Positions 24,977 through 34,082 of a DNA stretch of 49,119 nt are shown in pieces. A model generated the notes under the pieces. It did no database searches. It had not been told where the DNA came from and was given only the letters and a program-made list of their open reading frames with translations. The stretch comes from Acidimicrobiia bacterium. Its GTDB lineage: Bacteria; Actinomycetota; Acidimicrobiia; Spongiisociales; UBA5794. Each line of letters opens with the position of its first letter. The first letter of the stretch is position 1. Made by a program: the position numbers and the translations under genes. The stretch lies in contig JALSQW010000042.1 in assembly GCA_026985095.1 (NCBI GenBank), positions 1 to 49,119 on the forward strand. Reading direction: 5' to 3'.

Positions 24977-25189
24977 ATGTCGAGGTCGAGTTGGGACCAC
25001 TGGCCATCGTGGGTGAAGGTCGTGGCGATCCTCCTGCTTGCGGTCCCTGTCGTATGGGGCGTCGGCGTCATCGTCGACTTCGCCACGGGCGTCTCGGCGG
25101 GAGCGGCGGTCGCCATCATCGGCCTCATCGGGCTCGTGGTGTACCTCGACGCCCGCCTCCGCGCAGAGCGGGACTCGAAGGGCCGCTGA
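24977..25189 (+). CDS. Small two-helix membrane protein, function unknown
   Basis: A 70-residue protein not matched to a family I know. Two hydrophobic stretches are visible: VKVVAILLLAVPVVWGVGVI (about 13-32) and AGAAVAIIGLIGLVVYL (about 42-58), followed by a charged tail (DARLRAERDSKGR). AGGAGGT lies four bases before the ATG at 24977. It begins 18 bases after tyrS and ends directly against the stop of the convergent cupredoxin gene. Confidence 0.7.
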   Translation: MSRSSWDHWPSWVKVVAILLLAVPVVWGVGVIVDFATGVSAGAAVAIIGLIGLVVYLDARLRAERDSKGR

Positions 25190-27115
25190 TCAGACGACCC
25201 CCGAGATCACCATCAAGACCGCGAGGATGACCAGGTACGCGCCGGCTCCACCGGCGACGAGCGTCCACCGCATCCAGCGAGGGATCTCCGATCCGCCGAA
25301 GACGTAGTAGAGGACCACGCCGAGGAACGGCACGAGGAAGATGACCGCGAACCATCCGATCGTCCTCCCTCGACCCAGACGGTCCTGGCGGCGGACGAGA
25401 TCCCACACGGCGAGGGCCATCCACGTCCCCATCAACGCCAGGGGCAGGAAGTACAGGTACAGGGAGAACAGTACGGTCCACACGGTGGGTCGGCTCACGG
25501 GCACGCCGCTCACGGTTACCTCCTTGCCCCGGATGCGGGTGCCCTCCGGGAGGGTCGGGACCCCGATGGCATCGAGGTCGGGTTTCTCGAACACGTCGAC
25601 GGCCGGTCGGGCCGGAGCACCGATGGCGTCGGGCATCTGTGGCTGAGGGCCCGGGGCAGGGAACGTTCGGTAGTCCGAGCCGGGGGGATAGCCGAAGTTC
25701 TGGTCGGCGGTGGCGCCCAGGAGCAGCGCGACACCGCTCAGGTCCCACACGACCGGCACGTTCACGGCGAGCCCGTGGTACAGCTCGGCCAGGGGAGGGG
25801 ACGTCCAGGTGTCGTGCCGGTTCCCGACGAACACGTTGCCCGGTGCCCACGGACCGATGATGGCCAGGTCGCCGAATCCGGTGCCGATGATCGTGTTGTC
25901 TCGCACCATGTTGTTCTTCGGCCACCAGAAGTTCTTGTCCGGCAGCATCGTGACGATCACGCCGTAGCGGTCGTGGTTCACGATCAGGTTCCGTTGGACC
26001 ACGTTGTCCTGTCCACCGCCGAGGACCACGCCCTCGCCGAGGGCGAGACCGGCCAGTCCCTTCGTAGGCGCCGTCTCGTTGTTGTTGTCGATGATCAGGT
26101 TCCCCACGATCGTCGCACCGACCTGCGGGGGGTACAGCTCCGAGTCGAGGGAGTTGGGGACGATCCCGCCCATGTTGTTGCGCCACACCGAGTCGATGAT
26201 GTACAGGTCGCCACCGGCGTTGGTTCCCGAGTAGGCCAGGCCGTTGTTCTCGGAGACGACGCCGTCGATGACGGCCCGGCACGACGTGCACTGGCCGATG
26301 TAGTAGCCCGAGTCGCGATTGCCGGAGGCGTAGGAGTACTCGAAGCGACCCACCTCCGAGTCGAAGGCGTAGATGCCGTAGTCACCGTTGTTGTGGGCCG
26401 TCAGATACGAGCCGCGGTAGCCCTCCACTCCGGTCCAGTAGAAGCCGTTGATCACGTAGTTCCGTGCCGTCATGTTCTCGATGGCGACCCCATCGGCGAC
26501 CACCTGGATACCGTTGGACAGCTCGAAGCCGCCATCGAGGATGGTCCCGTTGCGATCCTCGCCCCGGATCGTCAGCGACGGCGTGCGCACGACCACCGCT
26601 TCGCGGTACACCCCGGGGGCCACGAGGATCATGTCCCCTGGTGCGGCGACGTCGACGGCCTGCTGGATGGTCGGCACCTGGGAGGGCACCCGGATCACGT
26701 TCCCGGTCCACTCGGCGACGGCTTCCACATCGGAGGGTCGGGGTCGTTCGTAGTCGGGCACGTCACCGACGACGATGTAGCCCGCCATGCCGTCGCCTTC
26801 GGGCGTCCCGTGGAACGTGCAGAAGTAGGGATAGACGCCCGGCTCGCTGAACGTGCGCTCGAACCGGTCGCCACGCTGGAGCACCGAATCGGACTGCCAT
26901 GTGCCATCCGAGGCGAAGACGTTGTGTGGGTTGTCGCCCTCGATCTTCCACTCGACCGTCCCTCCGACCTCGATCTCGAGCACGGGCGGAACGAACTGGT
27001 CGTCGACCGCCAGCACCCCGGCCGTTCCGGTCCCGGCGGCGGCATCGGCCGAGCAGCCGGCGGCGATGAGGGCGGCGCCGGCGAGCACCATGAGCATCCA
27101 GAGGCGACGGGACAT
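25190..27115 (-). CDS. Cupredoxin / parallel beta-helix lipoprotein with C-terminal membrane domain
   Basis: Unusual 641-residue secreted-and-anchored protein. The N-terminus looks like a lipoprotein signal ending at Cys21 (ALIAAGC). Residues 32-118 form a plastocyanin-like domain with putative type 1 copper ligands His64, Cys99, His102 and Met110. Residues about 140-440 are a right-handed parallel beta-helix (PbH1/NosD-like: repeated N-x-I, GDYGIYAF and GNRDSGYYI turns, plus a CTSC pair). Residues about 520-641 contain three membrane helices; the middle one (WFAVIFLVPFLGVVLYYV) resembles the PLD-nuclease N-terminal membrane domain. Function unknown; extracellular copper or polysaccharide interaction is possible. 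A leaderless start is likely. Confidence 0.82.
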   Translation of the reverse strand: MSRRLWMLMVLAGAALIAAGCSADAAAGTGTAGVLAVDDQFVPPVLEIEVGGTVEWKIEGDNPHNVFASDGTWQSDSVLQRGDRFERTFSEPGVYPYFCTFHGTPEGDGMAGYIVVGDVPDYERPRPSDVEAVAEWTGNVIRVPSQVPTIQQAVDVAAPGDMILVAPGVYREAVVVRTPSLTIRGEDRNGTILDGGFELSNGIQVVADGVAIENMTARNYVINGFYWTGVEGYRGSYLTAHNNGDYGIYAFDSEVGRFEYSYASGNRDSGYYIGQCTSCRAVIDGVVSENNGLAYSGTNAGGDLYIIDSVWRNNMGGIVPNSLDSELYPPQVGATIVGNLIIDNNNETAPTKGLAGLALGEGVVLGGGQDNVVQRNLIVNHDRYGVIVTMLPDKNFWWPKNNMVRDNTIIGTGFGDLAIIGPWAPGNVFVGNRHDTWTSPPLAELYHGLAVNVPVVWDLSGVALLLGATADQNFGYPPGSDYRTFPAPGPQPQMPDAIGAPARPAVDVFEKPDLDAIGVPTLPEGTRIRGKEVTVSGVPVSRPTVWTVLFSLYLYFLPLALMGTWMALAVWDLVRRQDRLGRGRTIGWFAVIFLVPFLGVVLYYVFGGSEIPRWMRWTLVAGGAGAYLVILAVLMVISGVV

Positions 27116-30368: not shown

Positions 30369-30601
30369 GTCCAAGCTACTACGAGTTGACGGTGGATGCC
30401 TTGGCGCTAGGAGCCGATGAAGGACGTGGCAGGCTGCGATAAGCCTCGGTGAGCTGTCAAGCAAGCGTTGACCCGGGGATGTCCGAATTGGGAAACCAGG
30501 CTGGGGTCATGCCCAGTCACTCCGGTCTGAACACATAGGACCGGGAGAGGGAACCGGGGGAATTGAAACATCTCAGTACCCCGAGGAAGAGAAAGCAACA
30601 G

Positions 30602-30645
<44 letters not shown>

Positions 30646-30908
30646 GACGTGGTGTGATAGCCCGATGGCGTTGCCATGTCGGTGTAGCGGGATCCTCCAG
30701 ACGGCGCATCGGAGCCGTCAGGGAGTAAGAAATCCATGGGATAGGCGAATCCTGCTGGAAAGCAGAGCCACAGGAGGTAACAGCCCCGTAGCCGAAATCC
30801 CGATGGACTCCCGGAGGCGATCCCAAGTAGCACGGGGCACGTGAAATCCCGTGTGAATCTGCGAGGACCACCTCGTAAGGCTAAATACATCCTAGCGACC
30901 GATAGCGG

Positions 30909-30942
<34 letters not shown>

Positions 30943-31504
30943 GGTGAGGGGAGTGAAACAGTACCTGAAACCGTCAACTTACAAGCAGTAGGAGGGATCC
31001 TTCGGGATCCTGACTGCCTGCCTTTTGAAGAATGAGCCGACGAGTTATCGATACGTGGCAAGGTTAAGCCGAGAGGTGTAGCCGCAGCGAAAGCGAGTCT
31101 GAATAGGGCGTCTAGTCGCGTGTCATAGACCCGAAGCCGAGTGATCTATCCATGGGCAGGGTGAAGCGAGGGTAAGACCTCGTGGAGGCCCGAACCCACC
31201 TAGGTTGAAAACTGGGGGGATGACCTGTGGATAGGGGTGAAAGGCCAAACAAACTCGGCGATAGCTGGTTCTCCCCGAAATAGCTTTAGGGCTAGCGTCG
31301 TGTGTTCCGCGTTGGGGGTAGAGCACTGATTGGGTTAGGGGGCCAACAAGCTTACCGACCCCAGTCAAACTCCGAATCCCAACGCGCCAAGCACGGCAGT
31401 CAGACCATGTGGGATAAGCTTCATGGTCGAAAGGGAAACAGCCCAGATCGCCAGCTAAGGCCCCCAAGTCAGGACTAAGTGGAGAACGAAGTGGAGTCGC
31501 CCAA

Positions 31505-31553
<49 letters not shown>

Positions 31554-32495
31554 CAGCTCACTGGTCGAGTGATTCCGCGCGGATGATGTAACGGGGCTCA
31601 AGTCCTGCGCCGAAGCTGCGGGATCCTGTCGACAACCCAGGCGATCACCTTCGGGAGGTCGTCCAGGGGACAGGATCGGTAGGGGAGCGTCGAACGGCCG
31701 CGGAAGTTGCGGCGAAAGCCAGTGATGGAGGCCGTTCGAGTGAGAATGTCGGCATGAGTAGCGAATGAGGAGTGAGAATCTCCTCCGCCGGATGTCCAAG
31801 GGTTCCTGGGGAAGGCTCGTCCGCCCAGGGTTAGTCGGGACCTAAGGCGAGGCCGAGAGGCGTAGTCGATGGACAACGGGTTGATATTCCCGTACCACTA
31901 TGCACGCGTCCAGGCCGAACCCAACTTGCTAAGGAAAGCCCTTCGGGGCCTACCGACCCAGTTGGTAGTAGGCCAGCAATGGAGTGACGCGGAAGGGTAA
32001 GCGGACCCGGGCGTTGGTTGACCCGGGGTAAGCGTGTAGGGCGGGGCCTAGGCAAATCCGGGCCCCATTGAAGCCTGAGGCGCGATGCCGAGCCGCGAGA
32101 GGCGAAGCCGCTGAACGCCCATGCCGCCGAGAAAAGCTTCTCGCGAGTGTGCATGGTGCCCGTACCCCAAACCGACACAGGTGGACAGGTAGAGAATACC
32201 AAGGCGAGCGAGATAACTCTGGTTAAGGAATTCGGCAAAATGGCTCCGTAACTTCGGGAGAAGGAGCGCCCCGGTAGGGTGTAGGACCTCGCGTCCGAAG
32301 CCCGAGGGGGTTGCAGAGACCTGGCCCAAGCGACTGTTTACTAAAAACACAGGAGCGTGCTAAGTCGCAAGACGACGTATACGCTCTGACGCCTGCCCGG
32401 TGCCGGAAGGTCAAGGGGATCGGTTAGCTCTTCGGAGCGAAGCTGTGAACCCAAGCCCCGGTAAACGGCGGCGGTAACTATAACCGTCCTAAGGT

Positions 32496-33102
32496 AAACG
32501 GCCCACGTCGCCACGTGGGCCACTGCCCCTCCGCGCGGCGACGCGCGTGAGTGCAGTCAGCTATATGCTGGAAACTCCGAGGATCCGTCGGTACTCGTTC
32601 GTGTCGTAGGTGCGCCCCGTACCGTGAGCGACATGAGCAGTGAAAACCCGTACGGTGCGGACAATCAGCAGGAAAGACCAGGGACCGAGCAGTGGATCGT
32701 CGGCTTCGTCGACGGTGAGGGTTGCTTCTCGATATCGGTGGTACGCGACGCGGGTGGCCGACTCGGCTGGCAGGTCCAGTACGAGAGCGGCGACCCGAGC
32801 TGCGTCCGCACGGCAGGCAGTCGAGGTGCTGGGACGGCACCTCGGATGCGGCTGGATCATCGAGAGGCTCCGACGGGACGACCACAGGGCACCGCTTCTG
32901 CGGTACTCCGTGAAGGCCCGCCGGGACCTCACGAGCGGATCATCCCGTTCTTCGAGGCGAATCCACTGAGCACCGCAACGTAGGACGACGTCCTAGCGGT
33001 CTCGATTCCTGGAATCCTCAGAGGCCATACGCTGACCATCTCGGTTCGACGGCCGAGATGAAGATATGGTCCGAGCCCCATGGCGACATGGGGACCAACT
33101 CG
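32496..33102 (+). ncRNA. Group I intron at 23S position L1931
   Basis: Self-splicing type intron of 607 nt. The 5' exon ends in U (32495) and the intron ends in G (33102), as the group I mechanism requires. Core landmarks: ATATGCTGGAAACTCCG (about 32562) and GGACAATCAGCAGGAAAG (about 32659), whose TGCTG and CAGCA can form P4; and the S element AAGATATGGTCC (33061-33072), whose GGTCC can pair with GGACC at about 32681 as P7. Perfect hairpins lie at 32500-32521 (near the 5' end), 33038-33061 (before the S element) and 33076-33093 (P9-like, with a GCGA tetraloop). The P1 guide pairing is only partly resolved (GGT with GCC at 32525). Wording suggests subgroup IB, as in organellar 23S introns. Confidence 0.93.
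32624..33032 (+). pseudogene. Frameshifted single-motif LAGLIDADG homing endonuclease remnant
   Basis: Starting at GTG 32624, the frame gives QWIVGFVDGEGCFSISV, the LAGLIDADG helix of a homing endonuclease. The family's continuation is then found in another frame (ARQAVEVLGRHLGCGWIIER, then LRYSVKARRDLT, about 32802-32935), and returns to the first frame as ERIIPFFEANPLSTA. Restoring one G at about 32936 joins DLT to ERII exactly. A TAG (32981-32983) then interrupts, and further family-like fragments (DDVLA, SRFLE, ILRGHTLT) lie in shifting frames to about 33032. At least two, probably four, single-base indels are present, so the gene is dead unless these are assembly errors. Its 5' codons overlap the ribozyme core. 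Confidence 0.85.
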
Positions 33103-33146
<44 letters not shown>

Positions 33147-33699
33147 CAACGACTTGGGCGCTGTCTCAACCAGAGACTCGGCGAAATTGCATTGTGAGTA
33201 AAGATGCTCACTTCCCGCGACAGGACGGAAAGACCCCGGGACCTTTACTGCAGCTTGGCATTGGAGTTCGTCATGTGATGTGTAGGATAGGTGGGAGGCT
33301 ATGAAGCGGCGACGCCAGTCGTCGTGGAGCCGCCCTTGAAATACCACCCTTCACATGATGGTCTTCTAACCTCGGTCCGTTATCCGGATCAGGAACAGTG
33401 CCTGGTGGGCAGTTTCACTGGGGTGGTGGCCTCCTAAAATGTAACGGAGGCGCCCAAAGGTTCCCTCAGTCTGGTCGGCAATCAGACGGCGAGTGCAAGG
33501 GCACAAGGGAGCTTGACTGCGAGACCTACGAGTCGAGCAGATTCGAAAGAAGGGCCTAGTGATCCCTCGGCGGCATGTGGGTGCGCCGAGGCCAACGGCT
33601 AAAAGGTACCCCGGGGATAACAGGCTTATCCTGCCCAAGAGTCCATATCGACGGCAGGGGTTGGCACCTCGATGTCGGCTCGTCTCATCCTGGGGCTGA

Positions 33700-33736
<37 letters not shown>

Positions 33737-33755
33737 AGGCACGCGAGCTGGGTTT

Positions 33756-33787
<32 letters not shown>

Positions 33788-33812
33788 TCGCGGGCGCAGG
33801 AGATTTGAGGAG

Positions 33813-33846
<34 letters not shown>

Positions 33847-33902
33847 TACCTCTGGTGTGCCAGTTGTCCTGCCAAGGGCACGGCTGGTTAGCTACGTACG
33901 GA

Positions 33903-33937
<35 letters not shown>

Positions 33938-34082
33938 GGCTCCAAGATGAGATCTCCCACCGGTATAGCCGGGTAAGGCCCCTGGTAGATGACCAGGTTG
34001 ATAGGCCGGAAGTGGAAGCGCAGCGATGCGTGAAGCTGACCGGTACTAATAGGCCGAGGGCTTGGACTTGAATACCGCGACA

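Follow-up and report, generated by a model that had tools for sequence, protein, structure and literature searches.

What task calls for a type 1 copper domain, a parallel β-helix and three membrane helices within a single lipoprotein? The question is raised by a minus-strand gene at positions 25190-27115 of the window, the 49,119-nucleotide stretch of Acidimicrobiia DNA analysed here, which translates without internal stops into 641 amino acids. Its features are as follows.

25190..27115, minus strand: whole gene, 641-residue lipoprotein made of a cupredoxin, a right-handed β-helix and three membrane helices
27053..27115, minus strand: signal peptide with a lipobox-like AAGC and predicted lipid-anchor Cys21 (sequence; Cys kept in fused orthologues)
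26762..27019, minus strand: type 1 cupredoxin domain, residues 33-118 (Copper-bind over cut-off; 1bxu match; ligand conservation)
26924-26926, 26819-26821, 26810-26812 and 26786-26788, minus strand: ligands His64, Cys99, His102 and Met110, respectively
25781..26689, minus strand: right-handed parallel β-helix, about residues 143-445 (Beta_helix over cut-off; TIGR03805 below cut-off; conserved columns)
26279..26290, minus strand: CxxC (Cys276-Thr-Ser-Cys279) within the motif Y(I/V)GQCxxC (invariant in the family)
25394..25486, minus strand: membrane helix 1, about residues 544-574 (hydropathy; low-confidence AlphaFold2 helix)
25298..25369, minus strand: membrane helix 2, about residues 583-606 (PLDc_N match; hydropathy)
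25295-25417, minus strand: PLDc_N match, residues 567-607 (Pfam profile)
25193..25270, minus strand: membrane helix 3, about residues 616-641 (hydropathy; low-confidence AlphaFold2 helix)

Domain architecture and conserved residues

Four Pfam profiles (Copper-bind, Cupredoxin_1, Beta_helix and PLDc_N) match the protein, each over its cut-off, in agreement with the domains that a sequence-only reading of the locus had assigned; the NCBIfam matches (TIGR03805, halocyanin and NosD) are all sub-threshold. The cupredoxin is recognized by Copper-bind (PF00127; residues 40-116, 30.4 bits against a cut-off of 21.2) and has plastocyanin 1bxu as its closest PDB match (E 1.6e-10), with a His64/Cys99/His102/Met110 spacing that fits the plastocyanin/amicyanin pattern. 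Connected to it by a linker, the β-helix passes the Beta_helix threshold (PF13229; 33.7 against 25.9 bits) and is spanned over most of its length by TIGR03805 (beta_helix_1; E 2.6e-19), whose score of 69.5 bits lies below the 141.5-bit cut-off of that family. AlphaFold2, run on an alignment of three similar sequences (the window protein, L049 and L050), gave pLDDT values of 32.8 and 35.7, so that the β-helix assignment rests on the profile matches; one of the two low-confidence models places three helices at the C-terminus.

These helices coincide with the three hydrophobic segments that hydropathy detects beyond a second, proline-rich linker, as the sequence-only reading had anticipated. Its further suggestion that one of them resembles the N-terminal membrane domain of PLD nucleases holds in that PLDc_N (PF13396) matches at 35.1 bits against a cut-off of 23.3, but the match covers the end of the first helix and the whole of the second rather than a single one. 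Helices 1 and 2 are joined by an Arg-rich loop of positive charge (VRRQDRLGRGR); by the positive-inside rule it is predicted to be cytoplasmic, which would leave the lipidated N-terminus and the folded domains outside. The lipobox, the conserved type 1 ligands and the three membrane helices lend good support, as a prediction, to the earlier picture of an extracytoplasmic copper protein held to the membrane at each end.

The copper ligand set and lipoprotein-like signal proposed from the sequence are borne out by conservation: both histidines and the cysteine are found in 51/51 fused homologues and the methionine in 48/51, and the position of Cys21, the predicted lipidation site, is conserved across the fused orthologues. 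The CTSC pair singled out in the same reading is a CxxC that all family members share (74/74). Of a further cysteine pair, C428/C449, each position is retained in 71 of the 74; the window protein carries V428 and L449 instead, a loss on both sides, as expected for a disulfide pair. Several polar residues of the helix are near-invariant (Y246, Y249, D268 and Y272). Homologues on haloarchaeal plasmids (L051, L053) keep the helix motif with both CxxC cysteines replaced (YLGRNxPF, N-x-x-F), and no cupredoxin gene was seen near them.

Distribution of the family and its genomic partners

The gene is present as a single copy in its own genome. Its close relatives are full-length (44-93% identity), and family matches at E <= 1e-30 occur in 98/198 sampled genomes of the class, a count of sampled species uncorrected for relatedness. 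Full-length copies were also found elsewhere in the phylum, in further families and classes, and a scan of genome contigs with this one protein yielded two near relatives, labelled Acidimicrobiia and Actinomycetota; the membrane helices are missing from several cupredoxin-helix forms, and Streptomyces and haloarchaeal plasmids encode helices that are more distantly related. These relatives rule out a fusion unique to the window, and a phage or viral origin was ruled out for lack of matches. The architecture had not been recognized as a characterized system, and we likewise found no description of a cupredoxin-helix-membrane protein in the open-access literature searched; far from being unique, however, it is widespread yet unstudied in actinobacteria. 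About half of the sampled class genomes keep the gene, and one family with genomes of only 0.6-1.1 Mb almost always does; this presence, and the retention in most of these ~1-Mb genomes, suggests a basic role.

The constant partner of the helix is the cupredoxin: fused in 51 cases and encoded nearby in 22, the two are together at 73/76 actinobacterial loci, with no cupredoxin seen at the other three (G110, G060b and G543). In most of the 22 loci the separate cupredoxin is the adjacent gene, and several oxidase-linked relatives have cupredoxin and helix as neighbouring genes where others have the fusion. Such a split into adjacent genes in several lineages, set against the fusion, provides Rosetta-stone evidence for a cupredoxin-helix linkage, and the helix tree requires at least 7 changes of cupredoxin state.

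The window locus itself is no functional operon: a DNA-ligase-like gene and an rRNA operon lie to one side of the gene, tyrS and a penicillin-binding protein gene to the other. A small convergent gene of about 69 amino acids with one hydrophobic helix (24977-25186, plus strand) ends a few bases from the stop codon of the lipoprotein gene. Within the rRNA operon, the 23S rRNA (30369-34069, plus strand) measures 3701 bases compared to 2925 in the model, and its roughly 780 extra bases are read as an insertion or intervening sequences.

Among relatives, whose gene calls are BLAST-clustered open reading frames rather than curated annotations, one clade has a gene for a Tat-exported two-domain multicopper oxidase 5-25 bp downstream of the helix gene on the same strand. 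This arrangement is found in about 23 genomes (20 compared neighbourhoods and three more genomes, G119, G133 and G218) from several families and classes; G227 and G328 carry a different multicopper oxidase, upstream. In the class sample, 13/14 oxidase-bearing genomes carry the helix gene and the two are adjacent in all 13, a co-occurrence with a Fisher p of 6e-4, uncorrected for relatedness. The linked oxidase resembles PDB 3gdc and 7rab. It retains four HxH-type motifs, whose eight histidines are those that a trinuclear copper site calls for, and its domain 1 carries a type 1 Cys, the axial position being taken by Leu. In the helix tree, oxidase linkage changes at least 7 times and most of the oxidase-linked forms group in a single clade of 27 rows (SH-aLRT 97, quick method); the lineage of the window lies outside this clade, so that the strongest linkage of the family is unavailable in its genome.

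The variable partners of the family are mostly redox enzymes. The di-haem oxidoreductase DHOR follows the helix gene in 3 genomes, and in the small (~1-Mb) genomes coxIII and ctaG are located a few kb upstream of it. In 13 genomes the neighbour of the helix gene encodes DUF1996, which is not known to have a redox role. It was considered as a hint to copper and rejected, its fungal members having altered sensitivity to several metal ions, copper excepted (PMC4738358).

Other cupredoxin arrangements were observed in the sampled genomes. In three relatives (L083:2871-6507, L084 and L085), the genes for cupredoxin, β-helix and DUF1996 come after those for the three subunits of a molybdenum hydroxylase, and in another family a cupredoxin gene comes after CoxG-like and MogA-like genes. 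A 902-residue open frame of G020 (C21:50186-52042) contains about six cupredoxin repeats, with similar multi-cupredoxin frames in G002 and G038.

Proposed electron transfer and the alternatives

Partners available to the window protein can be sought in its own 2.9-Mb genome (G000), which contains five COX1-family haem-copper oxidase genes on contigs C19, C48, C11, C29 and C8 (L113-L117), some of them possibly nitric oxide reductases. A Cu-oxidase_3 domain search with a positive control found no multicopper oxidase in this genome, and no two-domain multicopper oxidase gene adjoins the window gene.

The reading that we put forward, at about an even chance of being right, is that of a membrane-tethered electron-transfer and docking protein for extracytoplasmic redox enzymes. 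What the analysis shows are the domains, the conservation of the ligands, the cupredoxin-helix linkage and, in relatives, the linkage to the oxidase; electron transfer, docking, the direction of the electrons and the partner in this organism are what we infer. The lipid at Cys21 and the three C-terminal helices would hold both ends of the protein in the cytoplasmic membrane, with the type 1 copper centre acting as a single-electron carrier outside it, and the β-helix could serve as a rigid docking domain that places the copper domain beside a partner redox enzyme or substrate. In the one large clade, this partner would most likely be the neighbouring Tat-exported oxidase, to whose type 1 copper the cupredoxin may give electrons or from which it may take them. 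In the lineage of the window, which lacks the two-domain oxidase, the role of partner probably falls to some other extracytoplasmic redox enzyme, such as a haem-copper oxidase of the genome. Three observations weigh against the reading: the place of this lineage outside the oxidase-linked clade, the DUF1996 neighbour of 13 genomes, and the cupredoxin-helix forms that have no membrane helices. With its constant cupredoxin partner and its oxidase neighbour, what was an anonymous 'beta-helix repeat protein' becomes open to testing as an extracytoplasmic electron-transfer module.

A bolder extension, which we regard as possible but on balance doubtful, is that cupredoxin-helix-membrane proteins and two-domain multicopper oxidases form a previously undescribed, membrane-tethered surface complex of deep-branching actinobacteria that reduces O2, from which the lineage of the window would have kept just the half that carries electrons, working with a different oxidase. 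If true, such a surface complex could serve for electron disposal, or for the oxidation of copper or another metal.

The main rival to electron transfer is copper delivery, in which the cupredoxin, the CxxC of the helix or both would load copper into extracytoplasmic enzymes such as a multicopper oxidase or cytochrome oxidase, in the manner of NosD though not as NosD itself. The multicopper oxidase neighbour, the proximity of the copper assembly factor gene ctaG in small genomes and the invariance of the CxxC speak for it, as does a weak likeness to the first 70 residues of NosD. Chaperones usually have open, solvent-exposed sites, however, and the full His/Cys/His/Met ligand set is the one that electron carriers have; moreover, no NosF/NosY-type ABC transporter or NosL is seen beside the gene, and the CxxC may be a mere disulfide, as suggested for the 428/449 pair. 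We regard copper delivery as rather improbable. Weaker still, and in our judgement unlikely, is a role in carbohydrate oxidation, where the β-helix would bind or act on a polysaccharide of the cell wall or the environment, in whose oxidation the copper centre would join. Right-handed β-helices of this type are often carbohydrate-active and several polar residues, tyrosines and an aspartate, are near-invariant, but no polysaccharide lyase or hydrolase family scores over its cut-off (pectinesterase matches are sub-threshold only) and the neighbours in the linked clades are redox rather than carbohydrate genes. On carbohydrate binding as such, which the sequence-only reading had offered as an alternative, the evidence speaks neither for nor against.

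The sequence-only reading had also pointed to NosD and the maturation of nitrous oxide reductase. The genome does have a complete clade II nos cluster (contig C29, L148:3795-13466) encoding NosL-like, NosY, NosF, NosD and NosZ proteins, next to genes for a haem-copper oxidase and a subunit II. The organism therefore probably reduces nitrous oxide, and a cupredoxin could, in principle, feed electrons to NosZ. The true NosD and the clade II NosZ of this cluster score 427.5 bits (TIGR04247) and 807.7 bits, respectively; the window protein reaches only 37.3 bits against the NosD cut-off of 300, and resides on another contig than the cluster, which is equipped with its own NosD, NosF, NosY and NosL-like genes. 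Between the window protein and that NosD, the only significant alignment is a short one (69 residues, 32%). In a set of 60 relatives, the family shows no co-occurrence with NosZ (4/12/9/35, with 4 having both; Fisher p = 0.73), and most carriers of the family have no NosZ. On score, on the separate cluster with its own NosD and on the missing co-occurrence, both NosD identity and nos linkage were rejected, and it is very unlikely that the protein serves nitrous oxide respiration, whether by donating electrons to NosZ or by helping NosZ to mature.

Comparison with known systems

The closest known counterparts of the cupredoxin are the plastocyanin/amicyanin/halocyanin-type proteins of PF00127, with which the window protein shares ligand set, spacing and significant sequence matches, and to which it adds a β-helix and a membrane anchor. 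The helix itself is best described, over most of its length, by the TIGR03805 proteins, whose Ruegeria member adjoins genes for a c-type cytochrome and a cytochrome c peroxidase; the window protein scores half of that family's cut-off, and the invariant CxxC and the pairing with a cupredoxin set the present family apart. NosD (TIGR04247) is also a secreted right-handed β-helix with similar first turns, but the window protein is far below its cut-off and without Nos linkage. PLDc_N (PF13396), matched over its cut-off, appears here without a PLD nuclease domain, as part of the C-terminal anchor. Finally, the linked neighbour of one clade belongs with the two-domain multicopper oxidases (PDB 3gdc and 7rab; archaeal MCO1/MCO4), among which archaeal MCO4 combines a two-domain oxidase with an additional blue copper domain (PMC7785015); the window protein, in contrast, is no oxidase, and its cupredoxin is borne by a separate β-helix lipoprotein.
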